Virus record (IMG/VR): IMGVR_UViG_3300007541_008222
Span: 1-27,232 of that record
Reading direction: 5' to 3' (one strand)
Origin: a virus
DNA: 27,232 bases
Position numbers and translations under genes: made by a program. Numbering within the stretch: position 1 is the stretch's first letter; each line of letters opens with the position of its first letter. This document shows, piece after piece, positions 1 to 19,124 of the stretch. The notes beneath the pieces are model-generated. The model did not search any database. It was not told where the DNA came from and worked only from the letters and a program-made list of their open reading frames with translations.

Positions 1-324
1 AGTACCACTAAAAAAATCTTTTCTATACTTGCATTTTTTAATTAATGACCTCCAGACATTTTGTGCTTGATCAGAAGCTTGATGATAATTGGTTTTTAAT
101 GCCCCTTTGTCGTTAATAGCATACTCGTACATACATTTACCGTACCCTTTACCTCTAAACCGTTGCTCTACAAAAGAAGAACCGACAAAAAGGTAATCAT
201 CTTGCTTTTTGTCGGTATAAACTGATATACAACCAGCTCTAGAACGTTTAACGTTCTTTTTTATGTACATTACATACTCTGTAAAGGCTGGCCCCTCGTC
301 AACCTCAAATAGAACCTCTATCAT
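1..324 (-). CDS. GNAT-like acetyltransferase, 3' end cut by window edge
   Basis: The frame is open from an ATG at 324 to the window edge (108 codons, no stop), so the C terminus is missing. The protein has an FRGKGYGKCMYEYAI segment near residues 56-70. This matches the acetyl-CoA binding loop (R/Q-x-x-G-x-G/A) and following helix of GNAT N-acetyltransferases. A later SDQAQNVWRSLIKK segment resembles the conserved helix before the last strands of small phage GNAT-like proteins. The substrate is unknown. The gene starts 11 bases after the tail tube stop, has no promoter box of its own, and is probably co-transcribed with the tube gene. Family assignment rests on motif reading only. Confidence 0.6.
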   Translation of the reverse strand, partial: MIEVLFEVDEGPAFTEYVMYIKKNVKRSRAGCISVYTDKKQDDYLFVGSSFVEQRFRGKGYGKCMYEYAINDKGALKTNYHQASDQAQNVWRSLIKKCKYRKDFFSGT

Positions 325-335
325 AAAGTAAAGTA

Positions 336-881
336 TTAACGACGTCTAAAGTAGTGGTATGCCATAGTAGCTGTAAAGTTAACTATAGTACCACTGCCGC
401 CAGAAATGTTGTACGTTAATTCACCAACATTTCTAACTGATGCGCCAACTAACTGATATTGTGCAACTGCATCTAACTGGGTATCTAACTGAACTAAGTC
501 GATAACAGCAGATTGTCTAGGTGCAAAATAATTACCAGTACTAGTAGCGTCATCAAAAATATCTCTAGACATATCTTCAAACTTCTGTCTAAGTACTGAG
601 TTTTGATCGCTGTAAAAGTTAAGGGTGTAACCGTCACTTCCAGGGTATGTAGCATTTCCTGGCACGTTAAAATTTAACCCCATATATGGTACCGCTACAT
701 TAGTAATTGCTCTTGCTGGTAAATTAGCAGCTGTGCAATACACAAGGTCATCTTCATCAAATGTGACGGAACTGGCGCCACCTGAGTCAATGCTTAAGAC
801 TCTGAATTGAAAATCTCTTGCGAAGTCACGTTCTACTGCTACTCTGTAAAAATCAGATATTGTTTGACGTACGTCTGGCAT
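336..881 (-). CDS. 19: Tail tube protein, gp19-like
   Basis: The product (181 aa) is a structural protein of the contractile tail; T4 gp19 (163 aa) polymerises into the inner tube inside the sheath. The N terminus (ISDFYRVAVERDFARDFQF), a central LPARAI...VPYMGL segment and a Y-x-G-S-D-G-Y-x-L-x-F-Y motif fit the gp19 family, as does the closing strand that ends in an aromatic and basic tail. It lies just downstream of the sheath gene, the T4 order 17-18-19. A late-type box CATAAATA sits 5 bases before the ATG, and a terminator separates it from the sheath gene, so it should be transcribed independently. I prefer this copy over the one at 3526-4104 as the major tube protein. Confidence 0.75.
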   Translation of the reverse strand: MPDVRQTISDFYRVAVERDFARDFQFRVLSIDSGGASSVTFDEDDLVYCTAANLPARAITNVAVPYMGLNFNVPGNATYPGSDGYTLNFYSDQNSVLRQKFEDMSRDIFDDATSTGNYFAPRQSAVIDLVQLDTQLDAVAQYQLVGASVRNVGELTYNISGGSGTIVNFTATMAYHYFRRR

Positions 882-886
882 ATCAT

Positions 887-894
887 TATTTATG
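887..894 (-). promoter_or_regulatory. Late-type promoter box of the tail tube gene
   Basis: CATAAATA is followed by five bases (ATGAT) and then the ATG at 881. It matches the T4 late consensus TATAAATA at 7 of 8 positions. The predicted start point falls on or next to the start codon. Confidence 0.65.
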
Positions 895-914
895 CTTACT
901 TGTTATCTTTTGAT

Positions 915-942
915 AAAAAAACCGGGCCTTACGACCCGGTTT
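915..942 (-). terminator. Rho-independent terminator after the tail sheath gene
   Basis: Read on the minus strand, a 10-bp stem (AAACCGGGTC / GGCCCGGTTT, one G-T pair) with a GTAA loop is followed by a run of seven T. It begins 28 bases after the sheath stop and lies upstream of the tube promoter. The plus strand lacks a matching long T run, so it acts mainly on minus-strand transcripts. Confidence 0.85.
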
Positions 943-970
943 AGGAAGATGTACTAATTTAAGCTATTGG

Positions 971-2791
971 TTAACCGACAATTTCGCTAAAATCAGTACC
1001 AGTGCGCGTAGCATAGAAGTTTACTAAGATAAACTCAGCAGCTCTAACTGGTTTCAAGTATATATCTACTACCAATTCATTGGCATCGATGACGTCTGGC
1101 GTATTATTACGTTCGTCGCAAACAATGAGATAATCATAAAGGCCTTCATTGTTCTTTGCATCTTCAAAGATTGGGGTTAGAACGTTTATGACGTTTGTCC
1201 TGGTAAACAGGGTGTTTGGCTCGAAGACGAAATACTTCACTGTTTCCCTTGTACGTTTTTCTAAGTAAAGGAACAAACGACGAACATTTACTCTGTCAAA
1301 CGCACTTGGTTGACTTTGAAGTGTCTTCTGACCAAATATAACAAACCCTTCGCTCGGGAAGAACGCAACAGGGTTTATATTGACTTGATCATATAACTGA
1401 TCTCTTTGTTTCTGATTTGGATATAATGCAATATCATTTACTGCAACCAACCCTCTAGTGAAACCAGCTGGTGCATACCATGGTGCAAAACTTGCATCGG
1501 TGCGAGCGTAATTCGCAGCTGCTATACCAGAGAATGGAATCCAAACCTGACCTCCAACACCATTATCATAAACCTGGGCATATGATGCATAAGCTGCAGC
1601 ATAATTTGTATTAATAATACTGTAGATTTGTTTTAATGGTGTTAAAATGTTTAACGGGAATGTCTGACCTGGTATATTAATACCTTTTGTATTGTCGCCA
1701 GATATTAAAATTTGACGAATTGGGTCAGATATAAAGATAAAATCTTTTCTTACATTACTTGCAAAGTTAATAAACTTATTAGTAATAGTTGCCCAAGATG
1801 ATCTAATTTTACTTGCATCAGCATCTAATGTAATACCGGTTGTACCTAAACCAGCAATACCGGTTAGGGCATCCCTATCATCGAAATATTTGTTTAGATT
1901 TGATGTGTTAGCTGTATTCTTTACTGTAGTTTGAATTGTACTTAAACCACCATCAGTCATGATATCAATATCAAATAAATCAATATTAGCTAATCTATCA
2001 AATACTCTATCTAACTTACCAGGTAAGTCACCAATTTCATTATTAGTTTCTTTAGTGGTGCTGTAAGAACCTGCAGGTAATAGTGAAGCATCTCCTATTG
2101 AAAATTCTTCTGTTCTTTTATTTCCATTAACATCGTAAATATAATTACCAGCAGCAATATTAGAAATGTTTGCTTGAGGTAAACCTACAATTTCTCTGTA
2201 AGACGTATTTGCATCACCTGTTGTACCACTTTCATAATAGTTATTAACAAGCTGGGTTGTGATTACTCTCACTTTTCTGTTCGGTGTACCGTCATCATTA
2301 AGATTACCAGATGAACCTCTACCCATTATGTTTTTATTAATCTTAACTGCTAAATTAACACTATTATTTGTTAATATTTGCGGTAAGTAGAAACTCATAG
2401 GAGCACCACCGTTAGGGTTATTAATTTGTCTATAATAATCTATACTTCCAAAATAACCTTCTTCTAAAATATAATCAAGTTTTGTAACTTCAGGTGAAAA
2501 TACCGACTGTCTTAATTTGTATAAACCAAATATTAACGTATCATCAAAAGATGGGGTATTAATTTTGAATGTTGGTATACTTTCTTGAGTTAACGATAAG
2601 TTTGCCGGGGTAGCTTCACTGTTATAATCAGCAGATAATAAGAAGTTTAATCTAGACTCAGGTATGGTTTGAAGAACGCTATATTGTTGGGTTTTATTTG
2701 TTTCATCTTTTGAAACTTTTACTTTTACAATATCATCATAATCAGTCGAGGCATAAAGATTAGTATTATCAGCAATGTTTAAGTAATAACC
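971..2791 (-). CDS. 18: Tail sheath protein gp18, C-terminal part (after in-frame TAA)
   Basis: This is the downstream part of the sheath gene: 606 codons in the same frame as 2792-3466, separated only by the TAA at 2792-2794. I translated 2399-2791 and found no further stop. It begins GYYLNIADNTNL, the expected continuation of a sheath protein. The first ATG in the part is at 2398 (475 aa), but that Met sits inside continuous homologous-looking sequence and has no promoter box, so it is unlikely to be a true start. The C-terminal ~100 residues (RETVKYFVFEPN ... LYDYLIVCDERNNTP ... VDIYLKPVRAAEFI) are the conserved sheath domain that contacts the tube. The gp18 assignment is firm; how this part is translated is open. 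Followed by a terminator at 915-942. Confidence 0.85.
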   Translation of the reverse strand, partial: GYYLNIADNTNLYASTDYDDIVKVKVSKDETNKTQQYSVLQTIPESRLNFLLSADYNSEATPANLSLTQESIPTFKINTPSFDDTLIFGLYKLRQSVFSPEVTKLDYILEEGYFGSIDYYRQINNPNGGAPMSFYLPQILTNNSVNLAVKINKNIMGRGSSGNLNDDGTPNRKVRVITTQLVNNYYESGTTGDANTSYREIVGLPQANISNIAAGNYIYDVNGNKRTEEFSIGDASLLPAGSYSTTKETNNEIGDLPGKLDRVFDRLANIDLFDIDIMTDGGLSTIQTTVKNTANTSNLNKYFDDRDALTGIAGLGTTGITLDADASKIRSSWATITNKFINFASNVRKDFIFISDPIRQILISGDNTKGINIPGQTFPLNILTPLKQIYSIINTNYAAAYASYAQVYDNGVGGQVWIPFSGIAAANYARTDASFAPWYAPAGFTRGLVAVNDIALYPNQKQRDQLYDQVNINPVAFFPSEGFVIFGQKTLQSQPSAFDRVNVRRLFLYLEKRTRETVKYFVFEPNTLFTRTNVINVLTPIFEDAKNNEGLYDYLIVCDERNNTPDVIDANELVVDIYLKPVRAAEFILVNFYATRTGTDFSEIVG

Positions 2792-2794
2792 TTA
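2792..2794 (-). other. In-frame TAA inside the tail sheath gene
   Basis: On the minus strand the codons read N-Q-K-F-TAA-G-Y-Y-L-N. Both flanks are sheath-like and share one frame, so only this codon breaks an 831-codon gene. Confidence 0.9.
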
Positions 2795-3466
2795 AAACTT
2801 TTGATTAACTGTAGTTTTTGCTGTATTTAAAACTATAATACCAGCCTTAGCCAACGTAGCTAATTGAGTTGCTGTTGTTGATTGAGTATTATCTACTTCA
2901 AAACTACCTGGTATACCTGGGGTATCACTCCATTGAAAAGCAGAGTCGTCTATAATTGCTGTATATTGCTCTTGTGTTAATGAAAGGAATGTTGGTTTAC
3001 CGACACAATATATAATATCATCCCCTGCTGAAGCTGGGCTGAATTGAGTTTCGGTTTGACCACCTTGTTGATCAATATTAGCTGACAAATAACTGTTTAC
3101 GGTACCACTTAATGCATCAAATGCTGTTTGATTAATAGGTACAACCGGGTAAACAGTCGCAAAATAATTGTTTGAAAACCCAGAACCTAAATTTTCACCA
3201 TATGGTAATCTGTTTACCAAAATATTGGCTCTGCTTTTAAAAGATTCTGCTACTGTATGGTAGAAATATCTTTCTGCTGGGTTAGTTGGGGCCCCATAAA
3301 TCTGAGTGAATTCTGATAAACTGGATACCTGTACAATTTCATCATTTGGTCCGTCAGGAGAGAAACCTGTAATGAAAATATTTGTACCTATTTTGTCTGC
3401 TGGACGCAAGGACAAATCTACTTCATTAATTTCTACACCAGGACTTTGTATAGTTCTTCGTGCCAT
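2792..3466 (-). CDS. 18: Tail sheath protein gp18, N-terminal part (ends at in-frame TAA)
   Basis: The first 224 residues of the contractile tail sheath. The N terminus (ARRTIQSPGVEINEVDLS) is the extended strand that links neighbouring subunits. Next come FITGFSPDGPNDEIVQV and FTQIYGAPTNPAERYFYHT, typical of T4-like sheath proteins. The frame stops at TAA (2792-2794, codon 225) and continues without a shift; read through, the gene has 831 coding positions plus the final stop. T4 gp18 is 659 aa, so 224 aa alone would be badly truncated. CATAAATA lies exactly 5 bases before the ATG. Two explanations remain: a sequence or assembly error, or real stop-codon readthrough. Confidence 0.85.
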   Translation of the reverse strand: MARRTIQSPGVEINEVDLSLRPADKIGTNIFITGFSPDGPNDEIVQVSSLSEFTQIYGAPTNPAERYFYHTVAESFKSRANILVNRLPYGENLGSGFSNNYFATVYPVVPINQTAFDALSGTVNSYLSANIDQQGGQTETQFSPASAGDDIIYCVGKPTFLSLTQEQYTAIIDDSAFQWSDTPGIPGSFEVDNTQSTTATQLATLAKAGIIVLNTAKTTVNQKF

Positions 3467-3471
3467 ATCGA

Positions 3472-3479
3472 TATTTATG
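3472..3479 (-). promoter_or_regulatory. Late-type promoter box of the tail sheath gene
   Basis: CATAAATA, then TCGAT (5 bases), then the sheath ATG at 3466. Same box and spacing as the tube gene. Confidence 0.65.
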
Positions 3480-3507
3480 CATTTTTAGATATAAAAGTCT
3501 AAAATGC
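3479..3507 (-). other. Intergenic hairpin upstream of the sheath gene
   Basis: An inverted repeat, GCATTTTTAGA and TCTAAAATGC (one bulged T), encloses an 8-base loop. On the minus strand it lies 18 bases after the stop of the 192-aa gene and touches the sheath late box. No T run follows on the minus strand. On the plus strand ACC and five T follow. It could be a weak terminator or an RNA processing or stability element; function is unproven. Confidence 0.45.
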
Positions 3508-3525
3508 ACCTTTTTAATAAATATG

Positions 3526-4104
3526 TCAAACTTGAAGAAGCTTAACCGTAAACTGACTGTAAGCCAAGGTAAATGACGACTCAATTTCGTCGGGGTCTCT
3601 GTATGAATAACTAATTCCCCCGATCCTGGTAGGGAATCCCTTTGAAAAATCAAATTGAACTACCTTTTTGTTGTATTCATCTAAACCATAAATGGTAAAA
3701 TTGGCCATATACAAATCTTCAACAACCATTCCTGGTTTATAATCTTTACTCGCGTCAAAATAACCTGCATAATCATCTTGCAATTTATTCAACCACGAAT
3801 AAATGAACCAATAGTTGCTAAATCTATTATCAATTGTGAAATTTATATCAATTGGTGGGTAAGTTGGGCGATTATGACTAGTAATGTGTAAATTCTGACC
3901 GCTATAGCGTGTTTCCACTTCAGGTACACTAACTTCTGGTATAACACTACCGTAAATTGAAAATTGCACCGAGTCTGGGTTAACAAACTTGTTATCTCTC
4001 ACCGTTTTTGATATATCATCCCGTAATACCTTTGGTGTAGGTATAACAAGGACAAATTTATCCTTTCTTTCCTTGTTAAACGGTGATTGTGAGTATGTAG
4101 TCAT
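3526..4104 (-). CDS. Tail tube-like structural protein (second gp19-type)
   Basis: A 192-aa protein between the terminase and sheath genes, where T4 has no gene. It has the layout of a tube-fold protein: an early strand (DKFVLVIPTP), VQFSIYGSVIPEVSVPEVETRY, a central helix-rich stretch (FSNYWFIYSWLNKLQDD), FTIYGLDEYNKKVVQFDF, then a G-F-P-T-R-I-G-G segment before final strands that match the gp19 'P-T-N-V-G-E' turn. It is probably a tail tube paralogue or a tube initiator or terminator. Its box TTTAAATA (4111-4118) overlaps the terminase stop and lies 6 bases before the ATG, putting it in the late class. The stop is TGA. The fold call is by eye only; which of the two tube-like genes makes the main tube is not settled. 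Confidence 0.6.
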   Translation of the reverse strand: MTTYSQSPFNKERKDKFVLVIPTPKVLRDDISKTVRDNKFVNPDSVQFSIYGSVIPEVSVPEVETRYSGQNLHITSHNRPTYPPIDINFTIDNRFSNYWFIYSWLNKLQDDYAGYFDASKDYKPGMVVEDLYMANFTIYGLDEYNKKVVQFDFSKGFPTRIGGISYSYRDPDEIESSFTLAYSQFTVKLLQV

Positions 4105-4110
4105 TGAATA

Positions 4111-4118
4111 TATTTAAA
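4111..4118 (-). promoter_or_regulatory. Late-type promoter box of the second tube-like gene
   Basis: TTTAAATA, then 6 bases, then ATG at 4104. The box overlaps the TAA stop of the terminase gene (4114-4116). Confidence 0.5.
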
Positions 4119-5859
4119 CTAACCATGAGTTAGCAGCAGGAGTAAACGATCTATGAGTTTGAAAGTCACCTACCGGCGTCCAACCATTCTGTTTCATCCA
4201 ATCTAACTCAGAATTATCATCTGACCCGGTTTTTTCTGTAAAGACTATTGTATCAACCTGGTCAGTTTCGTCTTCTTCACCCCAGCTAAACAACTTTTTG
4301 TTAAGATTTGTACCGTAATCATAGTCATAACGTCTGATTTCAGCAGGTCTACCGTTGGAATCAAACCGCAACACGTCAAAATACCGTCTAATAAGGTCGT
4401 TATCTAATATTAATAGAGCCCAACCAAGGGACATAACACGGTCATCCATCATATCTATACCAGGCTTAGCAGCCCACTTACCATTAGGATATTTTATGAA
4501 GTTTTTAATCTCTACTAATGTTTCTAACTCACGAATATTAACTGCTTGTAGTTCATTTACGAAATATCTCATGTTCATCACACATCTATACTTGGTATTT
4601 GTGTGAGATATAACGCCTAACCTGTTATTTTTAGCTTTTCCTTGGCCTGCTTCAAATGAAACTATGTTTCCATAACGTAAAGTATGGTATAAATGATCAA
4701 CTACCTGGGCTCCACAGCTATTTCTTTCAATTAATGCCGGGGGACTACCCCATTGCAACAGAATTTCGTGTAATTTACTGGTAAAGTTAAAGGGATTTAT
4801 GGTATTACTCCAATATGTGGCTACTTGCTCTATATTATTAAGGTCTTTTAAGTCTAATATTTGAATTACACTAGCATTTTGGTGTACACCTTCAGCAATA
4901 TCAACACCTGCTACATATACCCCGTTGTCATCCGGTTGTCTCCAAATTTTGTAATTGTTTTCCTCCATTACAATCTTTGGTTTTTGACAATTTACCTTTA
5001 AAGCTTCGAATAACTCTTCATTTATAGCTAATTCACCAGAAGATATGAATTCACACCCGAACTCTTGGTTAAATGCTTCTTCACTACCAATAGTACGCAT
5101 GGTTTCGTACCTCCACTGTTCATCTCTACCAGGAACCTCATGCCATAAGATTTTATCGTAACCCCAACCGTTTTTATATTCAATAGCACCATTCCAAATC
5201 TTGTAAAACAGGTTATCTGTACCGTTTGCGGTAGATGCTATAAAGATTTTAGACTTTTTCGATGATGAAATTACAGGGAAAACAGATTTCCAAAACTGAT
5301 CCACCAAGTGAGGTTCAATAAATGCTAACTCGTCTAGTACTAGCACGTTAATAGATTGACCACGAGCAGCTGTTCCTGTTGTGGTACTAATACCTATTGA
5401 TGTACCGTTAGTTAATTTCAACGATTCTTTACCATATTCAGTAACACCAGGCTTTAACCAGTTAGGTAACTCTTCATATGCCATTCGAATACGTGAAAAT
5501 ATCTCTTTTGCAGTACCTTCTTTGTTAGCAACAATAAGAATACGTTGATCATTATTAAAACAAGCATGCCATAATGTGTAAATTGTCATCATGGTCGTTT
5601 TTCCTATCTGTCTTGAGGCAAGTAATATAAAGAAACGATTATCTCTCATACCCCTTAGTGCTCTTTTCTGGCAAGAGTGTAGACCAATCTTTTCACGACC
5701 ACGATCTAGGTTAACAATAAAGAAGAAATTTTCTGCGAAGTAAAGAAGGTTTTGTTTTGCCTTCTTCAAATCTTTAATCATTGCCGGTGTCCACTCAAAC
5801 TGAGTATTCTCTGTAGGCAAGTTAGGATTACCCAAATAAAAATCACGGGTAGGTTTCAT
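4114..5859 (-). CDS. 17: Terminase large subunit, gp17-like
   Basis: The DNA packaging motor (581 aa; T4 gp17 is 610). It combines an N-terminal ATPase that pumps DNA into the prohead with a C-terminal nuclease that cuts concatemers. Visible motifs are Walker A SRQIGKT (83-89), Walker B NVLVLDE (171-177, acidic pair D176-E177) and the coupling motif IASTANG (207-213). Nuclease acidic residues appear in VAGVDIAEG (D320), ALIERN (E378) and MMDDRVMSL (D472/D473), the three-acid RNase H-like site of gp17 proteins. The start has GTTAAATA 7 bases upstream. The gene diverges from the plus-strand gene at 5897 across only 37 bases. The small subunit (gp16) was not seen in the window. Confidence 0.95.
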   Translation of the reverse strand: MKPTRDFYLGNPNLPTENTQFEWTPAMIKDLKKAKQNLLYFAENFFFIVNLDRGREKIGLHSCQKRALRGMRDNRFFILLASRQIGKTTMMTIYTLWHACFNNDQRILIVANKEGTAKEIFSRIRMAYEELPNWLKPGVTEYGKESLKLTNGTSIGISTTTGTAARGQSINVLVLDELAFIEPHLVDQFWKSVFPVISSSKKSKIFIASTANGTDNLFYKIWNGAIEYKNGWGYDKILWHEVPGRDEQWRYETMRTIGSEEAFNQEFGCEFISSGELAINEELFEALKVNCQKPKIVMEENNYKIWRQPDDNGVYVAGVDIAEGVHQNASVIQILDLKDLNNIEQVATYWSNTINPFNFTSKLHEILLQWGSPPALIERNSCGAQVVDHLYHTLRYGNIVSFEAGQGKAKNNRLGVISHTNTKYRCVMNMRYFVNELQAVNIRELETLVEIKNFIKYPNGKWAAKPGIDMMDDRVMSLGWALLILDNDLIRRYFDVLRFDSNGRPAEIRRYDYDYGTNLNKKLFSWGEEDETDQVDTIVFTEKTGSDDNSELDWMKQNGWTPVGDFQTHRSFTPAANSWLV

Positions 5860-5866
5860 ATACTGT

Positions 5867-5874
5867 TATTTAAC
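5867..5874 (-). promoter_or_regulatory. Late-type promoter box of the terminase gene
   Basis: GTTAAATA, 7 bases before ATG 5859, in the 37-base divergent gap. Confidence 0.5.
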
Positions 5875-5883
5875 TAAAAAATG

Positions 5884-5891
5884 AATAAATA
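5884..5891 (+). promoter_or_regulatory. Late-type promoter box of the 326-aa acidic gene
   Basis: AATAAATA, then TAGAC (5 bases), then ATG 5897. Divergent partner of the terminase box. Confidence 0.6.
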
Positions 5892-5896
5892 TAGAC

Positions 5897-6877
5897 ATGA
5901 ATCGTAAAAGAGACTTAGAAAATTTGTCAAAATTATACGAAAGCTTTAGTGAAGATGAACAATCAAGTGCATTTGGTCAAGAAATGGCTGATAAAGCTGA
6001 AGATCAAAACCCAGTTCAGAATTACGAAGACGAAGAAGTAAAATTTCAAGTGGGTGATAAGGTAAAAGTTAACGCTGGTAGAAGTTTAAATGATTTACGC
6101 TCTGGTAGATACGGTACTCAAGATTTATATATGTATGGTACTATTGCCTATATTGATGACGATAATGTACAGATCGATACCAACCACGGTACAATGGAAG
6201 TCGATATTAATTCCATAGAACATGATGAAGAAGCTGAAGATTTAGGCCCTAATCAACAACCTGAAAGTTGGGGTGATGAAGCCATGGGTGATGAACAACC
6301 AGGCGAAACATCTATGAGATTTTCTCAAGATACACCTGATGATCCTGCTTCGGGTGGTAGTCCTAACATTGATGATCCAGATGAAGAAGAATATGACGAC
6401 CCTTATTATAATAGAGAAGAAGATTTAAGAAGTAGAGGTATTGATCCTGATGCAGAAGATCCTGATGCCGATGAAAAAGGCAAAGAAGAAAGAAATAGAG
6501 AAGAAGATCAGGAAGATGATAATGCTTTTCCAGAAGATAAATCATACTATGATAACGAAGATGAAGAAATGTCTTTAGAAGATGCTATTAAAGTAATTAG
6601 AAAGCATATTGAGGCCAAAGCTAAGTATGGTGATGATTATGATATTGAGGATGAAACACTCAATTTTGGTGATAGAGAAAAAGCGATGAAAGTTTGGGTT
6701 AAGAATTTTCATAAAAAAATGAAAGCTGGTAAAAAAGATGAAGATGAATTAGGTCAAGCTATGGCTTATAAGAAAATTACCGGTAATGAAGTTAAAAAAG
6801 AGTCATTTAACTCGCATGGTGACAGAGATATGTCTTTATTAGCAGAAAAATACTTAAATATTAAAAATCATGAATAG
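5897..6877 (+). CDS. Acidic protein, probable internal head or scaffold-type protein
   Basis: A 326-aa, very acidic protein of unknown function. The N terminus MNRKRDL is identical to that of the next gene. A short beta-rich, KOW/SH3-like stretch (FQVGDKVKV ... MYGTIAYIDDDNVQID) lies at about residues 50-115. A disordered D/E-rich middle (about 110-230) follows, then a lysine-rich helical segment and a C-terminal SLLAEKYLNI motif. L13-Y14-E15 fits the L-x-E site cut by T4-type prohead proteases, which trim short N-terminal peptides from internal head proteins. A late-type box precedes the start by 5 bases. Acidic composition, late class and neighbours suggest a prohead core or internal head role; this is inference. 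It overlaps the next gene by 8 bases. Confidence 0.5.
   Translation: MNRKRDLENLSKLYESFSEDEQSSAFGQEMADKAEDQNPVQNYEDEEVKFQVGDKVKVNAGRSLNDLRSGRYGTQDLYMYGTIAYIDDDNVQIDTNHGTMEVDINSIEHDEEAEDLGPNQQPESWGDEAMGDEQPGETSMRFSQDTPDDPASGGSPNIDDPDEEEYDDPYYNREEDLRSRGIDPDAEDPDADEKGKEERNREEDQEDDNAFPEDKSYYDNEDEEMSLEDAIKVIRKHIEAKAKYGDDYDIEDETLNFGDREKAMKVWVKNFHKKMKAGKKDEDELGQAMAYKKITGNEVKKESFNSHGDRDMSLLAEKYLNIKNHE
6853..6860 (+). promoter_or_regulatory. Possible late-type box of the 341-aa acidic gene
   Basis: CTTAAATA inside the end of the preceding gene, 9 bases before ATG 6870. The spacing is longer than at other late boxes, so support is weak. Confidence 0.35.
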
Positions 6878-7895
6878 AAAAAGAGATCTTATTCAAATTG
6901 AAGAAGCGTACGCTGCAGTAGCAGGTAACCCACCTGGTAAAGCAGCTGCTAAACAACAATTAAAGCCAGGTAAAGCAATAGATAAAACTTATGCTGCAGC
7001 TTCTAAAGGTATTAAAAACATTCCAGTTGGTAATGATGCAAGTACTCAAGGCTTTGTACATGACAATTCTGGACCTAAGGGGGCTGATAATTTTAAAAGT
7101 ACTGAATTAGACCCAGACAACCCAGCTATTGGAGATGACAATGCTTTTGATATTAAACAAAGCTCTGATGAAGGAGCAGATACATATTTCAAAGCTGAAA
7201 ACAAGAAAATTGCAAAAGAGAATATAAATAATAGTATGGCAAAGAATAAGTCTATTTTTGATCGTTTATACGAGGAAGTGATGGATGACGAACAGTTTGA
7301 CGCAGTTGAGCTTGGCATCGGTGATGACGAGGGCGGCGATGACGTTGAAATGGGAGGAGATGAAGTCACGATTACCATTGATAAAGATTTAGCACAGAAA
7401 CTTCATGACGTTCTTATGGATGTTCTTGACGGTGGAGAAGGCGGCGATGATGAAGCCGACATGGAACCCGAAGGAGATCTTGGTGATGAGGACGAACAGG
7501 CAGCTGGCGGCTTCGAAGAAATGGAAGAAGACGACGCTGACGAAGATGAAGAAGCTGACGAGGACGAAATGGAAGATGAGGACGAAGAGACCTTTAACTA
7601 TTTCGGTGAAGAAATTGAAGCAGAAGATTTAGGTCATCCACTTGTTAACCAGAAGAAAGGTAACCCCGAAAAACCTTCTGGTAAGAACAACGTCGTTAAG
7701 TCCGCTCATACCTCTAATGTAGGTAGCAAAGGCGGCGACGGTAAAGTTACTGACAAGGTTGGTAATGACGGTGATGAAGGTACTCCTATCACAGGTATGA
7801 GAAAGGGACATCCAACTTCACCTAAGGGTTCCGCTAATGTTGTTAAGAGCAAGATTAAGGGTGGTAATCAGGAGTTTTTCCAACGTAATGGTTAA
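6870..7895 (+). CDS. Acidic protein, probable head or scaffold-type protein with internal start
   Basis: A 341-aa protein that starts MNRKRDL like its neighbour; the ATG overlaps the neighbour's end. Residues 1-122 are Ala/Lys/Asn-rich in AT-rich codons. Residues 123-341 begin MAKNKSIFDRLYEEVM, then a small domain (VTITIDKDLAQKLHDVLMDVL), a long D/E run (about 187-252) and a basic Gly/Lys tail that ends GGNQEFFQ. L-x-E or I-x-E cleavage-like sites occur at I10-E11-E12 and L133-Y134-E135. Codons become visibly richer in G+C from about 7270. A perfect TATAAATA box lies 5 bases before Met123 (ATG 7236), so a 219-aa protein may be made as well, or instead. An internal head or scaffold role is inferred. 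Ends at a strong terminator. Confidence 0.5.
   Translation: MNRKRDLIQIEEAYAAVAGNPPGKAAAKQQLKPGKAIDKTYAAASKGIKNIPVGNDASTQGFVHDNSGPKGADNFKSTELDPDNPAIGDDNAFDIKQSSDEGADTYFKAENKKIAKENINNSMAKNKSIFDRLYEEVMDDEQFDAVELGIGDDEGGDDVEMGGDEVTITIDKDLAQKLHDVLMDVLDGGEGGDDEADMEPEGDLGDEDEQAAGGFEEMEEDDADEDEEADEDEMEDEDEETFNYFGEEIEAEDLGHPLVNQKKGNPEKPSGKNNVVKSAHTSNVGSKGGDGKVTDKVGNDGDEGTPITGMRKGHPTSPKGSANVVKSKIKGGNQEFFQRNG
7223..7230 (+). promoter_or_regulatory. Perfect T4-late promoter box inside the 341-aa gene
   Basis: TATAAATA, then ATAGT (5 bases), then an in-frame ATG at 7236. It is an exact consensus match at the spacing seen upstream of real genes here. It would give a leaderless mRNA for residues 123-341. 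Confidence 0.65.
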
Positions 7896-7916
7896 ACGAA
7901 CAAAATAGAGTAGTTC

Positions 7917-7953
7917 AAAAATGCCTGCCAAGCGCTTGGTAGGCATTTTTTTT
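7917..7953 (+). terminator. Rho-independent terminator after the acidic head-type genes
   Basis: A stem of about 11-12 bp (ATGCCTGCCAAG / CTTGGTAGGCAT, one G-T pair), tight loop, followed by eight T. It begins 22 bases after the stop at 7895. The next late box starts right after it. Confidence 0.9.
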
Positions 7954-7954
7954 G

Positions 7955-7962
7955 CTTAAATA
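7955..7962 (+). promoter_or_regulatory. Late-type promoter box of the nucleotidyltransferase gene
   Basis: CTTAAATA, then TTAAT (5 bases), then the GTG at 7968. The spacing supports GTG 7968 over the out-of-frame ATG at 7966. Confidence 0.55.
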
Positions 7963-7967
7963 TTAAT

Positions 7968-9002
7968 GTGAAGTTTTACAACGAAACTTTAAACCCTAAA
8001 TTTTACGTAAAGGATAAAATGATTCCTGCTTTACGTAAAAAGCTTATTGATATTACTAAGGATTTCCTAGCTAATGTACCTATAAAACTTCCTAAAATTG
8101 ACGATATACAATTAACAGGTAGCTTAGCTAATTACAACTACACCCCAAAAAGTGATTTAGACGTTCACATCTTATTAGACTTTAACAAAATTGACGAAGA
8201 TACGGATTTAGTTAAAGCAGCTTTAGATGGTATCCGTTTTATATGGAATACCAAACATGATATTAAGTTAAAGGGTCATGAAGTAGAAATGTACTTTCAA
8301 GACACAAAAGAACCTCATGTATCGTCTGGCTTGTATTCTTTACAAGAGGGTAAATGGGTCAAAAAACCAGAATATAACCCACCAAGTATAAAAGACGAAG
8401 ACGTTAAAAAGAAATTTGAAGATATTAAGGTTCAAATTGACAAGTTAGAAGAGTTAACTAACAAGTACAAAGATGACTCAGGTAAATCTGAAACATTATA
8501 CAATTATGGTAGAAAATTATTTCAGAAAATAAAGAAAATGAGACAAGAAGGTCTCAAAGGTATGGGAGAATTTTCAGTAGGTAATTTAACTTTTAAATTT
8601 TTACGCAACACAGAGTATATTGATAAGTTATACAACTTAATTAATCATAATTATGATGAAATGTACTCAGAGTCATTTTTTAACACCGGTAAAACAAATC
8701 ATAGACAACAACATGCTGTTGTAAGAGACCCTGGTACTAGAAAACACGCAACAACAGTACCAGAATACTTAAGAACGAATTTAGAATTACCAAATAGTTT
8801 TAAAGTAATGCAAAAACCCGGAGGACCAAAATTTGTTTATATTAGTCCTCAAGATGCATACAAATTATCAAAACATTTCGGTGTCAGGGATATAAGGCGT
8901 CCAAAAGGTTTAAAAAAATCTGGTGTAGCTTTAGGAGTAAAACCTGACGGTAGGTATTACCTAATGAGAACTAACAAGAATAAAAGGAGTTATCTAAGAT
9001 AA
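7968..9002 (+). CDS. Nucleotidyltransferase-fold protein
   Basis: A 344-aa protein. TGSLANYNYTPKSDLDVHILL (residues 50-70) has the G-S and D-x-D motifs (G51-S52, D63, D65) of the DNA polymerase beta-type nucleotidyltransferase superfamily. A helical middle (about 140-225) follows. A basic C-terminal part (RRPKGLKKS, RTNKNKRSYLR) may bind nucleic acid. Members transfer NMP to RNA, protein or small molecules; the substrate here is unknown. The start is GTG, because no in-frame ATG lies near and the late box fits the GTG. The gene ends in TAATG, overlapping the start of gp14 by one base, so the two are probably co-transcribed. Placement among late head genes hints at a packaged or assembly-linked enzyme, which is inference. 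Confidence 0.65.
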   Translation: MKFYNETLNPKFYVKDKMIPALRKKLIDITKDFLANVPIKLPKIDDIQLTGSLANYNYTPKSDLDVHILLDFNKIDEDTDLVKAALDGIRFIWNTKHDIKLKGHEVEMYFQDTKEPHVSSGLYSLQEGKWVKKPEYNPPSIKDEDVKKKFEDIKVQIDKLEELTNKYKDDSGKSETLYNYGRKLFQKIKKMRQEGLKGMGEFSVGNLTFKFLRNTEYIDKLYNLINHNYDEMYSESFFNTGKTNHRQQHAVVRDPGTRKHATTVPEYLRTNLELPNSFKVMQKPGGPKFVYISPQDAYKLSKHFGVRDIRRPKGLKKSGVALGVKPDGRYYLMRTNKNKRSYLR

Positions 9003-9850
9003 TGTCTATTGCATGGTATACAGGTACTAATCAAATTATGCCAGGGTTTTTACCTGGTGTTCCTACCCCAAATAGCAGTGGTTCAATTTACCCTAAACCA
9101 AAAACATGCAACCCCTGTTTTAGATTTACTGATAAGGATAACACTTTATGTGAAAGGCTTGTTATTAGTAATTGGTGGTTTGAACAAATATGTTTATATG
9201 GTCAAAGAGTTACATATTGGCAAAACCCCTACAATACTTTATCTGCAGATGGTATACCTGAAGCTGGACCCGGTAACATTTACGGTGAAGAACCTACTAA
9301 GGTGTTTAAAGACCCAAAACAAATAATTGTACTACTCGAGTTGCAAGAAAATGCAGTTATACTTCAAAAGTATGGTTTTGATTCTGATGACGAGTTTACA
9401 GGTTATATACACATTAGTGCATTTTATCAAACATTTGGATATTTACAAGAACCCAAAGCTGGTGATATAATTGAGTTAACAGAATTTGGAGATGATAGAC
9501 CTTATCCCCGTACAGGTAAGAAATTTGAAATTACCGAACGTTTAGATGAAGATGTTGCAAGAATAAACCCATTAGCAGGTCATTATGTTTGGATGATAAA
9601 AGCTAAACGTTATGATTATAGCTTTGAACCTGGTCTTAGTGCTGAAGGTGGAAGTGATCAGGTATATGATGATAAGTTCTCAGGTGTACTTGATGGTGGA
9701 ATGCAAGATAGATCCTCACCTAAGAGTTATGATGGGGATCTTGAAGAGTTATCTAAAGCAATATTTGACTATTCAGGGTTTGATTATGATAATGTTTACG
9801 GAGGCTACGGTAACACGGAAGCTCCTGAAGCCGGTCCGTTTGGACCTTAA
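9002..9850 (+). CDS. 14: Neck protein gp14-like (head completion)
   Basis: A 282-aa protein (T4 gp14 is 256). T4 gp14 joins gp13 to close the filled head so that the tail can dock. Shared layout by eye: an LVISNWWFEQICLYGQRVTYW segment where gp14 has its 'LVAESIQMRGVECYYVPR' strand, a GYIHISAFYQTFGYLQEPKAGDIIEL stretch like gp14 '(K)EGDLIYFP', a KKFEI strand, and an acidic disordered tail. Residues 35-50 have C-x2-C and a further Cys. The ATG overlaps the preceding stop. AGGAG lies 12 bases upstream, one of the few Shine-Dalgarno-like sites here, as expected for an internal operon gene. The convergent stop overlaps the next gene by 4 bases (TTAA). Confidence 0.6.
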   Translation: MSIAWYTGTNQIMPGFLPGVPTPNSSGSIYPKPKTCNPCFRFTDKDNTLCERLVISNWWFEQICLYGQRVTYWQNPYNTLSADGIPEAGPGNIYGEEPTKVFKDPKQIIVLLELQENAVILQKYGFDSDDEFTGYIHISAFYQTFGYLQEPKAGDIIELTEFGDDRPYPRTGKKFEITERLDEDVARINPLAGHYVWMIKAKRYDYSFEPGLSAEGGSDQVYDDKFSGVLDGGMQDRSSPKSYDGDLEELSKAIFDYSGFDYDNVYGGYGNTEAPEAGPFGP

Positions 9851-10167
9851 CCTCGCGAACTATTATTATAAAACGAATCGTAGTCCGGTAGAGTTTCACC
9901 TCTCATATTAGCTATAAGTTTATCTGCATCATTACAACTTGCAAAAACTTCAGTAACTACTTTACCCTTACCGGACTTGAACGTATACTCAACACCGTCT
10001 TCAATTTTTTTGATATAAACTATAGTATATATCTCACCGGGTTCAAATTTAGAGTTAGTTAATGGAGCAGATTCAGTTTGCATACCAAATCTAGTTGGAC
10101 CACCTATACGAGGTCTTAAACTAACTCCACCCGGGGCTTGAAAACTTGTATTAAGTATGTAATGCAT
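9847..10167 (-). CDS. Hypothetical protein
   Basis: A 106-aa protein I do not recognise. It has a Pro/Gly/Arg-rich N-terminal arm (about 10-40) and then a compact alternating-strand region (GEIYTIVYIKKIEDGVEYTF), suggesting a small beta-rich domain, with a Ser/Asn/Arg tail. It overlaps the upstream minus-strand gene by 17 bases and is probably the last gene of the unit that starts near 11184. Its stop forms the 4-base overlap TTAA with gp14. Confidence 0.6.
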   Translation of the reverse strand: MHYILNTSFQAPGGVSLRPRIGGPTRFGMQTESAPLTNSKFEPGEIYTIVYIKKIEDGVEYTFKSGKGKVVTEVFASCNDADKLIANMRGETLPDYDSFYNNSSRG

Positions 10168-10432
10168 TTTCTCTGTAAATATATTCCTTTACTGATCTTG
10201 GTTCTACCTCAACATCACCCATCTTATAATTAATAAGGGTACTTTGATACATCTCTGATATGTAATTTTTAAATGCTAATGGTTTGATCCATGAGTCATT
10301 CTTGTCAATGTCCATTCCAATCTTTTCTGCTTTTGTAGCTACATAATTAACTGCCTCAAAAAGACAAATCCACCTTGAAATTTCTTCAGGTGTCATATCT
10401 TCAATTGTTTTTTTGTTCAATGAATTTTCCAT
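10151..10432 (-). CDS. Hypothetical helical protein
   Basis: A 93-aa protein of unknown function, predicted largely helical (MTPEEISRWICLFEAVNYVATKAE ...). I place the start at ATG 10432 (MENSLNKK) rather than TTG 10441. A strong promoter lies directly upstream: TTGACC, 16 bases, TATAAT, then 8 bases to this ATG; the TTG would fall too close to the -10 box. GAAGGG just before the ATG could also act as a weak Shine-Dalgarno site. It overlaps the preceding gene by 32 bases, which then contains the promoter. The promoter type implies early expression. Confidence 0.6.
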   Translation of the reverse strand: MENSLNKKTIEDMTPEEISRWICLFEAVNYVATKAEKIGMDIDKNDSWIKPLAFKNYISEMYQSTLINYKMGDVEVEPRSVKEYIYRENALHT

Positions 10433-10769
10433 ACCCTTCAATTATAGAGGCTACCCGTTTAGGGTCAAAGTTAAAATTACTTAGCTTGGTATTTTTTAAT
10501 GCATTTTCAATTACCTGCATATTAAGTTTTAGAATGTTACTGTTAGCAGAAATATTCTTAGAGTTTTGTTCGAGTATATCGTCCATAACAACTCTAATTA
10601 GGTTATCTAAAATCTTTTCTTTATTCTTTTCATCTAACGTAGCTTTTGCGGCCAATATACCTTTGTTATAAGAATCATAGTAAGCAGTACCATGATATCT
10701 TTCCGTAGATGGTGTATCACCTACAGGTGGTATAGCTTTATTCTCTGATTCATTAAAATTAATTGTCAT
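10401..10769 (-). CDS. Hypothetical helical protein
   Basis: A 122-aa protein I do not recognise. The N terminus (about 1-45) is Pro/Ser/Tyr-rich and probably disordered. Residues 45-122 form amphipathic helices (KEKILDNLIRVVMDDILEQN ... ILKLNMQVIENALKN). The ATG overlaps the end of the membrane/zinc protein gene by 11 bases, and AAGGA lies 7 bases upstream, a plausible Shine-Dalgarno site for coupled translation. The stop is TGA. Confidence 0.6.
   Translation of the reverse strand: MTINFNESENKAIPPVGDTPSTERYHGTAYYDSYNKGILAAKATLDEKNKEKILDNLIRVVMDDILEQNSKNISANSNILKLNMQVIENALKNTKLSNFNFDPKRVASIIEGYGKFIEQKNN
10441..10468 (-). promoter_or_regulatory. Early sigma-70-type promoter of the 93-aa gene
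   Basis: TTGACC (10468-10463), 16 bases, TATAAT (10446-10441), 8 bases before ATG 10432. It is embedded in the coding region of the 122-aa gene. Confidence 0.7.
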
Positions 10770-11184
10770 AATCTTTTCCTTCTACAAAATTAAAATTCTT
10801 AAACGGGTCATCACTAACAGGTGTGGTTTCTAAAAATGTTTTTGACCCAATATATACCTTTACACTCTTTTTACATTTAGGGCATTCGTACTTATTTTCT
10901 AAGTCTAACCGTATAGGTACATAAGTTTTAGCAGCACAATTTTCATCTGGACAGATACATTCAATTCCTTGTTTAGAAAATTCTTTTATACGCTCATTTT
11001 GGATTGTTTCAAACTCAATTTCAGCTCTTTGTTTTCTCCAGTTAGAAAACAAATTATAAACAAATATTTGAAAGATAGTAGCAAGACCAAATACCGGGAA
11101 AAATGGTAAACTAAGCAAATAGAAACACCCAGCCACAGAAGCACTAACTGAAAATAAAATTAATAAAGATTTAACTAATTCCAC
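10759..11184 (-). CDS. Small membrane protein with zinc-ribbon domain
   Basis: A 141-aa protein. Two hydrophobic segments (about 5-25 and 28-47) are followed by basic residues (NWRKQR), suggesting a hairpin in the inner membrane. A helical linker leads to a likely zinc ribbon: C76, C78 and C83 (C-x-C-P-x3-C), then C101-P-K-C104. The soluble part would face the cytoplasm if the positive-inside rule holds after residue 48. The start codon is GTG. Late-box-like sequence (ATTAAATT) precedes it but is imperfect. It heads an overlapping run of four minus-strand genes ending at 9847. The role is unknown; a membrane-anchored Zn domain could bind host RNA polymerase, a nuclease or other host proteins, which is speculation. 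Confidence 0.65.
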   Translation of the reverse strand: MELVKSLLILFSVSASVAGCFYLLSLPFFPVFGLATIFQIFVYNLFSNWRKQRAEIEFETIQNERIKEFSKQGIECICPDENCAAKTYVPIRLDLENKYECPKCKKSVKVYIGSKTFLETTPVSDDPFKNFNFVEGKDYDN

Positions 11185-11199
11185 TAATATAATTTAATA

Positions 11200-11604
11200 T
11201 TAGGACTCTGCATTACCACTCTCGAATGGTTTACGCTGAACAATTACATCTAAATCTTTAGTCATATTGTTTAAGATATGCTTAATCTTACCACAACGTT
11301 TAATAAAGTTATTTAAATGTTCAGTAGCGTCTTCACTCTCTGTAACTAACGGGTTTTCTTTAGTTTGTCTTGCTTTAGCTTCAATATTATCTGCTGCTAA
11401 GAATAAAGCACCCATATCTTCAATGATATGCGTCATAGGGTAAGGGAGCTCTAAGGGAGCTTTATTTCTATCGTTAGTACCGCTAGCTTGTAATAAATCA
11501 CCTACCGTAACGTGAGAAGGCTTTTGCTCTCTGGTAGCAATACCACGAACCCACTTATTGTACATTTGTATTTGATCTTCTAAAAGTAATTTATTACTTG
11601 CCAT
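11200..11604 (-). CDS. Hypothetical late protein
   Basis: A 134-aa protein of unknown function, mainly helical, with charged C-terminal helices (EHLNNFIKRCGKIKHILNNMTKDLDVIV). The promoter is the best match to the T4 late consensus upstream of any gene here: TATAAATA followed by exactly 5 bases and ATG 11604. This suggests a virion or assembly protein. It diverges from the plus-strand gene at 11637 across 32 bases. Confidence 0.65.
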   Translation of the reverse strand: MASNKLLLEDQIQMYNKWVRGIATREQKPSHVTVGDLLQASGTNDRNKAPLELPYPMTHIIEDMGALFLAADNIEAKARQTKENPLVTESEDATEHLNNFIKRCGKIKHILNNMTKDLDVIVQRKPFESGNAES

Positions 11605-11609
11605 ATTAT

Positions 11610-11617
11610 TATTTATA
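11610..11617 (-). promoter_or_regulatory. Perfect late promoter box of the 134-aa gene
   Basis: TATAAATA, ATAAT (5 bases), ATG 11604. Exact T4 late consensus. Confidence 0.75.
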
Positions 11618-11623
11618 GGAGAG

Positions 11624-11631
11624 ATTAAATA
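11624..11631 (+). promoter_or_regulatory. Late-type promoter box of the 131-aa gene
   Basis: ATTAAATA, AATGT (5 bases), ATG 11637. It is divergent with the box at 11610-11617, with six bases between the two boxes. Confidence 0.6.
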
Positions 11632-11636
11632 AATGT

Positions 11637-12032
11637 ATGAGCTTTTTTAGTAAACGTTTTATTACATTACTTGAGCAAGACGAAACAGTAGAGATTACAG
11701 ATACAGAGGCTATGGAAACACAGCTTGATCCTGAAACTGATGCAGCTGATTTCAATGTCGATGCCCCTCAACAGTCACCTGAAGACATGGTAAAGGCTAA
11801 CAATGCTGCTCAAGCCCAGGAGTTGGCTAGTTGGATATCTAAAATGCAAGAATTTACTAACTATCTTAATAGTGAAGGCGATTCTGTACAGTCTAAATTA
11901 CATCAAGCCAGTTGCGACACCCTTTTTAATAAGATTGCTAGTGCTGAAACCAAAAAGATTGCTAGAGTTGCAATGGATTTAAGTGCTCTTATTGAGAATC
12001 TTAAAGGTTATATGCATAGTGCAGATGTTTAG
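11637..12032 (+). CDS. Hypothetical small acidic late protein
   Basis: A 131-aa protein. The N-terminal half is acidic and disordered (about 14-55); the C-terminal half is helical (about 60-128). L-L-E at residues 11-13, shortly after a basic start (SFFSKRF), resembles the prohead-protease site of internal head proteins, as in the two larger acidic genes on this strand. The late box fits that view. It is not recognised as a named T4 protein; in size it is comparable with small prohead core or internal proteins. It converges on the primase gene with a 4-base stop overlap (TTAG). Confidence 0.55.
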   Translation: MSFFSKRFITLLEQDETVEITDTEAMETQLDPETDAADFNVDAPQQSPEDMVKANNAAQAQELASWISKMQEFTNYLNSEGDSVQSKLHQASCDTLFNKIASAETKKIARVAMDLSALIENLKGYMHSADV

Positions 12033-13069
12033 TATATAATTTGAGATAATTTTACAAGTCCCGGTAATCCTTTGAATGTATTTTGCATTAAAAAATTATT
12101 AGGGACTTTTTCTATGTCTAAAGTTATACACATTTCATTAAAATCTTTAAACTTTATACCAAACTTCTTAGGCCATATGAATACTTTATGACCTTTCTCT
12201 AATAATGTTTTCGTTTTCTTAAGTGAAGCTTTATCTTGCCATTGGGAGTCTAGTGCAATAACTCTTTCATGAAACGGAAACTTCATTAACTGAGTATTTT
12301 GTAGTTTAGTATAAAGATTATCACTACTTTCATTGATACCCGCAACAGCTACACCATTTTCAACAAAGAAAGCATCAATTGGACCTTCTATAATGTAAAT
12401 CTGATCAATGTCTTCTTTAATTTTATCAATATTAAACAAACTTCTATCACTGTCGATCTTGCCTAGATACTTAGGTAGCTTAACTTTGTAGTTCTCAATG
12501 ATAGTTCTACTTTGATAAAAGATGATCTTACCGGAGACATCGTGGAAAGGTATGATAAGTCTATTCTTATGTACTTTATCTTTAAGTGAGAAGTAAAGGG
12601 CTTTAGGTCTATTAATAGCCTTATCTAATTTACGTTTTTTTATGTAGTTAAGAGCAGTTTGTACTAATGCATTTGAGTTATAATACTTTATTTGACCTTC
12701 ATCAAATAGATTAATACTATCTTCTGGTAATGATTTATGTAAAGCTTTCTTTACAACTGCACTTATATCAACATCTGCGGAAAGATCTTTAGGTAACAGA
12801 TCATACTCTTCTGCTTCCTTGTATATTTCACCTACAGTCATGCTCGACACTTCAACAATCCAGTTCATAGGATTAGAATGCCAACCACAATTGTGACAAT
12901 GAACGAAATTATCTTTTACAACATAGAACAACCGACGTTTTTTACCCCAAGACTTACCCTCTCTACACACAGGACATCCTCCTTGGTAAGTCTTTGCAAG
13001 TCTATTATACTTCGGCCGTCCAGCGTATTGATAAAATTTTTGTACGATGTATGCCTCAGGTAATATCAT
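12029..13069 (-). CDS. 61: DNA primase, gp61-like
   Basis: Makes RNA primers for lagging-strand synthesis and works with the gp41 helicase as the primosome (346 aa; T4 gp61 is 342). A zinc-binding domain of the CHC2 type is visible: C32-P-V-C35 and C58-H-N-C61. The Toprim catalytic core follows, with IYIIEGPIDAFF (E228) and VIALDSQWQ (D274), and RLIIPFHDVSGKIIFYQSR leads into it. The start is ATG 13069, with an early promoter (TTGAAC, 16 bases, TATAAT) ending 10 bases upstream. The bases before the ATG (CCTCCTTGGT) are the complement of a Shine-Dalgarno sequence, not a ribosome site, consistent with a very short leader. Confidence 0.93.
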   Translation of the reverse strand: MILPEAYIVQKFYQYAGRPKYNRLAKTYQGGCPVCREGKSWGKKRRLFYVVKDNFVHCHNCGWHSNPMNWIVEVSSMTVGEIYKEAEEYDLLPKDLSADVDISAVVKKALHKSLPEDSINLFDEGQIKYYNSNALVQTALNYIKKRKLDKAINRPKALYFSLKDKVHKNRLIIPFHDVSGKIIFYQSRTIIENYKVKLPKYLGKIDSDRSLFNIDKIKEDIDQIYIIEGPIDAFFVENGVAVAGINESSDNLYTKLQNTQLMKFPFHERVIALDSQWQDKASLKKTKTLLEKGHKVFIWPKKFGIKFKDFNEMCITLDIEKVPNNFLMQNTFKGLPGLVKLSQIIY

Positions 13070-13079
13070 ACCAAGGAGG

Positions 13080-13107
13080 ATTATATACTATTTCTCTAAT
13101 GGTTCAA
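13080..13107 (-). promoter_or_regulatory. Early sigma-70-type promoter of the primase gene
   Basis: TTGAAC (13107-13102), 16 bases, TATAAT (13085-13080), 10 bases to ATG 13069. It lies inside the 65-aa gene upstream. Confidence 0.7.
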
Positions 13108-13285
13108 TAGAAACAACGCCTTTTCTAATAAAAGTACCGCTGTTAGGATCAATCCAATGGGCCTCAGTTATTCTTTCACCATTTCTTTCAAATGTACGTA
13201 ACCTAGGATGCACTGGATTACCAGAAATAGGGCTGGTAATAGGTACTGGCCGTACCATATGCATATTATTAATGTTATTATTCAT
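13088..13285 (-). CDS. Hypothetical small protein
   Basis: A 65-aa protein between RNase H and primase. The N terminus is Asn/Met-rich, followed by a proline-containing arm and a compact C-terminal segment (TEAHWIDPNSGTFIRKGVVSI) that looks like a short beta hairpin. It is chosen over the overlapping plus-strand frame because it fills the gap between two minus-strand genes and has a late box, ATTAAATA, 6 bases before its ATG. The late box inside a replication block suggests separate, late expression and perhaps a virion role. The stop is TAG. Confidence 0.55.
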   Translation of the reverse strand: MNNNINNMHMVRPVPITSPISGNPVHPRLRTFERNGERITEAHWIDPNSGTFIRKGVVSIEPLEK

Positions 13286-13286
13286 A

Positions 13287-14180: not shown

Positions 14181-14383
14181 TATTCACCTTTAGTCTTTTT
14201 AGTCTTTTTGGCTTTTTTAGTTTGAACTGCTCCGTCTAGTTCATCAATGCGTCGCTTTACAGCTTTTCTTACTTTAGTTTTCGTGTTTGTTGAAACAGAA
14301 GTAAATTTTGCAAATTCTTCACATAAAGAATCAAGTTCACTTTTCGTTTTAGCACTAAGAATGCGATCTTTTAACGATTTCAT
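14180..14383 (-). CDS. Small lysine-rich protein
   Basis: A 67-aa protein. The N-terminal 45 residues look like two amphipathic helices (LKDRILSAKTKSELDSLCEE); the tail is a run of Lys-Lys-Thr/Ala repeats. Such a basic tail suggests nucleic acid or protein binding, but no named family was recognised. It is the first gene of an early unit with RNase H: a near-consensus promoter (TTGACT, 16 bases, TATAAT) ends 6 bases before the ATG, and its stop overlaps the RNase H start by one base. Confidence 0.65.
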   Translation of the reverse strand: MKSLKDRILSAKTKSELDSLCEEFAKFTSVSTNTKTKVRKAVKRRIDELDGAVQTKKAKKTKKTKGE

Positions 14384-14389
14384 ATTAAT

Positions 14390-14417
14390 ATTATATGAAA
14401 AATCTGATAATAGTCAA
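14390..14417 (-). promoter_or_regulatory. Early sigma-70-type promoter of the 67-aa/RNase H unit
   Basis: TTGACT (14417-14412), 16 bases, TATAAT (14395-14390), ATTAAT (6 bases), ATG 14383. The -35 hexamer overlaps the stop of the 88-aa gene. Confidence 0.75.
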
Positions 14418-14680
14418 GTGAGGTGTTGTGCTTCTAGAACTTTGAAAACATCTCTGGGTAATTTTTCAACAAATTTAACTATCCCATTATCTATCCCGTT
14501 TTCGAAGTCTTTAATAGGTACTTTTAGTTTTTCATTACCTGGTACTGCGAGAAAACAGTGGTGATCTTGTAGAGTATCGATGTATGCAATAAATTTACCA
14601 GCGTGATCTCCGTTTTTTACTGCATATAGAAATCGCTTTTTAGGCTTTTTGGTATTTTTTGTAATACTGAACCATTTCAT
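14414..14680 (-). CDS. Hypothetical protein
   Basis: An 88-aa protein of unknown function with alternating strands (RFLYAVKNGDHAGKFIAYID ... HCFLAVPGNEKLKVPIKDFENG), suggesting a small beta-rich domain. I place the start at ATG 14680 (MKWFSITK) rather than 14698, to shorten the overlap with the dehydratase gene; either is possible. It still overlaps that gene by 41 bases, so it is likely translated by coupling from the same mRNA. Confidence 0.55.
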   Translation of the reverse strand: MKWFSITKNTKKPKKRFLYAVKNGDHAGKFIAYIDTLQDHHCFLAVPGNEKLKVPIKDFENGIDNGIVKFVEKLPRDVFKVLEAQHLT

Positions 14681-16658: not shown

Positions 16659-16663
16659 ATCAA

Positions 16664-17733: not shown

Positions 17734-17738
17734 ACCCT

Positions 17739-18257: not shown

Positions 18258-18872
18258 TTATGATGATAGGTCACCTAGACTTGCCAACAAGTCATCAATG
18301 TCTTCATCAGTAGATTTAGTTTCTACAGGTGAATCAGTCACTGTTTTTGTGACTGCTGCAACACTTTCAGTTACTACTGCTGCTGCAGCAACCGGACTTG
18401 TAGCGGTACTAGCTTCTTCATCATTACTTACACAGTAAAAATGCTCGTTCAACACTTCTTTTAGTTCATCGTACGATTTTACTGTAAAGACTGACTCAAG
18501 ATCAAATGCATCGTTATGAATTGCATCAGCACCACCATCATAATCAGTGGTGAGTGTCTTAGGCATACCGAATTTAGATGAAACATAGGTAGGGTAATCA
18601 CCTTGCTTCTCAACTTTGATACGAAAATCACAGCCATTAGCAACGTCAAAGATACGAGGACCGAAATCTTCAGCTTCTTCACCTTGCATAGCCTCCATAA
18701 TGATCTTATGCAACTGTCTACCAAAGCGAAGCAACTTAATTGTACCATTATTATCAGGGTTAACCGGGTCATTTATAACAAGCACATTGACCATCCAGTT
18801 TTCACGACGAAGAATAGATGATGCCTTTGACTTTTCTTCTTCAGAACCAGTCTTAGACAACCTATACCTTGT
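18258..18872 (-). CDS. 32: Single-stranded DNA-binding protein gp32, C-terminal part (after in-frame TAA)
   Basis: Same frame as 18873-19124, separated only by the TAA at 18873-18875. The part opens T-R-Y-R-L-S-K-T-G-S-E-E-E-K, which continues the gp32 core. RENWMVNVLVINDPVNPDNNG aligns with T4 gp32 'SYWANILVVKDPAAPENEG', and KLLRFGRQLHKII with 'KYRFGKKIWDKI'. The end (STDEDIDDLLASLGDL) is the acidic tail that recruits partner proteins. The only nearby start-like codon is TTG 18860, with no promoter or ribosome site, so independent translation is unlikely. The read-through gene has 288 coding positions; T4 gp32 is 301 aa. Confidence 0.82.
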   Translation of the reverse strand, partial: TRYRLSKTGSEEEKSKASSILRRENWMVNVLVINDPVNPDNNGTIKLLRFGRQLHKIIMEAMQGEEAEDFGPRIFDVANGCDFRIKVEKQGDYPTYVSSKFGMPKTLTTDYDGGADAIHNDAFDLESVFTVKSYDELKEVLNEHFYCVSNDEEASTATSPVAAAAVVTESVAAVTKTVTDSPVETKSTDEDIDDLLASLGDLSS

Positions 18873-18875
18873 TTA
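18873..18875 (-). other. In-frame TAA inside gene 32
   Basis: Codons read D-P-I-A-TAA-T-R-Y-R-L. Both flanks are gp32-like and in one frame. This is the second single TAA in an essential gene in the window. Confidence 0.88.
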
Positions 18876-19124
18876 TGCAATAGGATCACGTTCACCCCAC
18901 GTATTAGGACTGATGTGATTAACGTACTGACCAGTTGCAAACGACGTCCATCCATGTGTATAGTAATGGAAGAATGTCTTAGCTGGGTCTTTAACGTTAG
19001 GAATCAACCTAACAGTGTATGTATTACCTACTTCTGTCCTAAGAAACTGACCTCTGGTTGATTGTCCAGTTGCTTTTTCCATAGAACCTTTGATGCTTTC
19101 GAATAATGTATTAATATTTGTCAT
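18873..19124 (-). CDS. 32: Single-stranded DNA-binding protein gp32, N-terminal part (ends at in-frame TAA)
   Basis: The first 83 residues of gp32, which coats single-stranded DNA cooperatively during replication, recombination and repair. TRGQFLRTEVGNTYTVRLIP and FFHYYTHGW match T4 gp32 'KLKLDNAGNGQAVIRFLP' and the following strands. T4 gp32 has a structural zinc site (H64, C77, C87, C90). Here the region reads SPNTWGERDPIA with no Cys, so the zinc site is absent. TAA at codon 84 breaks the frame. A promoter and long leader precede the start (see the entry at 19125). Confidence 0.82.
   Translation of the reverse strand: MTNINTLFESIKGSMEKATGQSTRGQFLRTEVGNTYTVRLIPNVKDPAKTFFHYYTHGWTSFATGQYVNHISPNTWGERDPIA

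Follow-up and report, generated by a model that had tools for sequence, protein, structure and literature searches.

We conclude, with a probability of about 0.88, that a consensus base error in a single metagenomic viral contig accounts for the in-frame TAA interrupting the tail sheath gene analysed here, a reading drawn from comparison with related sequences. The gene lies in a 27,232-nt stretch of viral DNA (IMG/VR record IMGVR_UViG_3300007541_008222), the whole of which is called the window below. In the real phage population, the site would hold a glutamate codon and the sheath would be a full-length protein of 831 residues. The same error process would have created a second false stop, in a gp32-like ssDNA-binding gene, together with three missense changes. 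The second stop is absent from the preliminary description of this DNA, which had reported the sheath stop alone.

Translation of the minus strand from 3466 to 971 gives 224 sense codons, the TAA, 606 sense codons and a terminal TAA, so that the preliminary description was right about one stop flanked by long open stretches in an unshifted frame. It had also noted sheath-type sequence on either side of the stop, and profile searches agree. The part before the stop matches PHROG 23 'tail sheath' over residues 7-137 (E 1.9e-6), and the part after it matches both PHROG 23 (E 2.7e-61) and Pfam Phage_sheath_1C (PF17482; E 6.8e-16). The gene therefore has the profile of a gp18-like contractile sheath, including the C-terminal sheath domain. 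A frameshift at the TAA was considered and ruled out, as the frame is unshifted and the relatives align without gaps at the site.

Table 1. Features of the window discussed in the text
Feature	Position	Strand	Remarks
Tail-tube-like gene	881-336	-	PHROG 45
Tail sheath gene (T4 gp18-like)	971..3466	-	831 codons; in-frame TAA at codon 225
In-frame TAA of sheath gene	2792..2794	-	Private substitution at 2794; GAA (Glu) in all relatives
Tail-tube-like gene	4104-3526	-	PHROG 45
Terminase large subunit gene	5859-4114	-	From profile search
Private missense	11847	+	Gln in window; Glu or Asp in every aligned relative (a single close relative in the alignment)
Private missense	13197	-	In 65-aa ORF 13285-13088; Arg in window; His in all closer relatives, Lys, Arg or Ile in some distant ones
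gp32-like ssDNA-binding protein gene	18258..19124	-	288 codons; in-frame TAA at codon 84
Second in-frame TAA	18873..18875	-	Private substitution at 18875
Private missense	24334	+	Ile in window; Met in every aligned relative

Several other features of the window were recorded (Table 1). The two tail-tube-like genes that flank the sheath gene have diverged from each other, both belonging to the same PHROG. Just downstream of the stop of a tube gene, a noncoding five-base tandem duplication (AAGTA, 331-335) is missing in a near-identical contig. Two adjacent acidic, low-complexity proteins of 326 and 341 aa, both starting with MNRKRDL and without a PHROG match, are encoded at 5897-7895. The regions 14640-16658 and 22455-27187 contain nucleotide-sugar epimerase-like genes and a carbamoyltransferase (Pfam), as well as putative QueC-like and glutamine-amidotransferase-like genes judged by eye.

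The relatives of the sheath gene are uniform at the site. With the sheath protein as query, viral contigs yielded 22 loci, and every relative that covers the site has GAA there, in 12 of 12 distinct local sequences. Contig 3300022198_005695 aligns with the window from 102 to 18480 over 18,379 positions and differs by six substitutions and one 5-bp indel; the sheath stop is one of these six base differences. Contig 3300007542_007111 is 99.8% identical over 4,431 bp and likewise has GAA, and its eight remaining differences from the window are all synonymous. The stop is thus missing from near-identical, independent contigs, as would be expected of an error. When 2.9 million viral contigs, a collection from which the window's own record may have been excluded, were scanned with a degenerate pattern, the stop-bearing version gave no match. 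Named phages showed no DNA-level match to the window in a DNA search.

Five substitutions are private to the window, meaning that the window's base is present in no relative. They were counted over positions 102-27232, which two near-identical contigs together span, leaving the first ~100 bases outside the count. From relatives to window, these change Glu to stop at 2794 and 18875, Glu to Gln at 11847, His to Arg at 13197 and Met to Ile at 24334. All five are protein-altering, two of them nonsense and three missense at residues conserved in close relatives. Strain differences, taken between the window and its 95-98% relatives plus the 99.8% one, are mostly synonymous (203 nonsynonymous to ~1030 synonymous, or ~84% synonymous). 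Set against the ~16% of altering changes among these, five of five gives a Fisher p = 1.3e-4, in a comparison that pools pairs and counts positions common to several relatives repeatedly. The private changes therefore look unselected and carry no signature of purifying selection.

The second stop behaves like the first. The gp32-like gene is open for 83 codons before its TAA and 204 after it, and a codon-level alignment of 73 distinct relatives contains no stop at codon 84, which is GAA or GAG in 67 of them; the remaining six, all distant, have other sense codons. Contig 3300025647_004884, 99.9% identical to the window over 8,807 bp, encodes Glu at this site. In 11 distant blastn alignments the base at 18875 seemed to be an 'A', but this came from a misplaced gap, all relatives having a sense codon in the codon-level alignment.

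The private changes are also distinctive in kind. The classes G:C>T:A and G:C>C:G account for four of the five, as against 91 of 824 strain differences (11%; Fisher p = 7e-4), the private set being small (n = 5) and the strain-difference spectrum counted without direction. Both have been ascribed to guanine oxidation in sequencing libraries (PMC8748355); the transition at 13197 is the one private change outside them. Were substitutions of the oxidised-guanine classes to strike these genes at random, the expected proportions would be 86% missense, 7% nonsense and 7% synonymous. Of all the ways in which one substitution can create a stop in this coding sequence, GAA>TAA is available most often (489 sites), so its appearing twice calls for no particular explanation.

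Comparable changes were found in one other contig, IMGVR_UViG_3300006810_004734 (L015), for which five near-identical sisters are available for comparison. The relatives contribute 181,737 aligned codons, of which seven are in-frame stops, three of these in L015, the only full-length relative whose sheath gene is interrupted. It carries 12 private substitutions in 5.2 kb, as against 0-4 in its sisters, and its stops, TAA, TAG and TAA at L015:483, 1529 and 3645, fall in two tube genes and the sheath gene. About nine of the 12 fall within aligned genes: three nonsense, a single synonymous one and otherwise missense. When L015 is added, the enrichment of G:C>T:A and G:C>C:G reaches p = 1.5e-7. 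L015 thus also looks error-laden, and since the same syndrome there includes a TAG, the syndrome is not tied to TAA.

How the error arose can be sketched as follows. Most likely, the stretch around the sheath stop was thinly covered, and one damaged or miscalled read would have set the base at 2794; guanine oxidation may have been the source of the damage. The preliminary description had offered an error among its options, and this one is now the best supported, whereas readthrough or suppression is disfavoured by relatives that all have a sense codon and by a change that is private and only one of five that alter proteins. Its hint of something biologically remarkable is not upheld.

We infer a sequencing or assembly error rather than a true mutation of one sampled genome, and the latter is the alternative that deserves most attention. 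Defective genomes occur in mixed populations, and one sampled genome or minor subpopulation, whether defective, damaged or freshly mutated and perhaps sustained by co-infection, could have dominated the assembly. True but unselected mutations would equally be private and lie at conserved sites, and a rare real variant is compatible with intact relatives, these being other contigs. However, this account requires that a single 27-kb molecule bore five unselected changes, including two that inactivate essential genes, and that these reached the consensus while near-identical relatives stayed intact, and the oxidised-guanine-like spectrum suits an artefact better. We therefore regard it as unlikely. 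A deliberately split sheath, or programmed readthrough in which the 224-aa and downstream pieces are both made, might be suggested by two pieces that are each open and sheath-homologous. The stop is nevertheless absent from all relatives, even at 99.9% DNA identity, and the next in-frame ATG lies ~130 codons downstream, at 2398, which leaves this the least probable of all the readings weighed here.

Decoding of TAA as glutamate or another amino acid by a host or phage suppressor tRNA would yield both essential proteins at full length, and it accords with in-frame TAA codons at conserved glutamates of two essential genes whose downstream parts are fully conserved. Stop usage speaks against it. 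The 34 delimited genes of the window end in TAA 19 times, TAG seven times and TGA eight times, bearing out the preliminary description, which had taken all three for ordinary stops and judged wholesale recoding of TAA improbable. If TAA were read as sense, the products of the 19 genes that end in it would be extended by 0 to 348 residues. Together with the sense codons at both sites in every relative, this usage led us to reject recoding: TAA is neither rare nor absent as a terminator, and in-frame copies occur in two genes with no relative sharing them, rather than recurring across many genes of close relatives. Suppression would also leave the three missense changes of the same private set unexplained, and L015 shows the same syndrome with a TAG. 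The window contains no tRNA gene, and an ARAGORN scan confined to ~300 kb of related contigs yielded just tRNA-Arg and tRNA-Leu, neither of them a suppressor. Suppression is highly improbable. Its specific form, a T4-like aquatic phage lineage that recently acquired ochre codons at essential sheath and ssDNA-binding glutamates and relies for their decoding on an ochre suppressor tRNA encoded by its host or in another part of its own genome, is more improbable still; even jointly, readthrough, suppression and a split sheath have only a very slight chance of being correct.

If the sheath TAA is a base error, as we favour, it is not a real feature and has no biological significance. Its interest would then lie in method: within a single viral contig, essential genes may be broken by several in-frame stops that are false, and L015 suggests that the window is not the sole error-laden contig in the collection. 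Comparison with near-identical contigs, asking whether changes are private, amino-acid-altering and of the G:C>T:A or G:C>C:G classes, tells false stops from true recoding.

Among known systems, the T4-like gp18 sheath (PHROG 23, Phage_sheath_1C), with relatives that include Pelagibacter phage HTVC008M and cyanophages, is homologous to the sheath of the window, which likewise is flanked by tail-tube-like genes and lies near a gene for the terminase large subunit. It differs in its N-terminal and middle parts, which are long, divergent and without a match in named phages; a protein search of named phages returned distant sheaths only, with about the last third aligning. Phage stop-codon reassignment, as described for genetic codes 15 and 4, affects TAG or TGA in many genes, and about half of code-15 phages carry a suppressor tRNA (PMC11210395). 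The window resembles such phages in having in-frame stops within conserved genes, but just two of its genes are affected, each by one TAA that no other contig shares, and TAA otherwise serves as its main ordinary stop. For consensus errors in metagenomic viral contigs (PMC8748355), formal proof comes from reads and strand asymmetry, whereas the window is known from its consensus alone. The window shares with them isolated, private substitutions, lacking signs of purifying selection and enriched in G:C>T:A and G:C>C:G, that create false stops.
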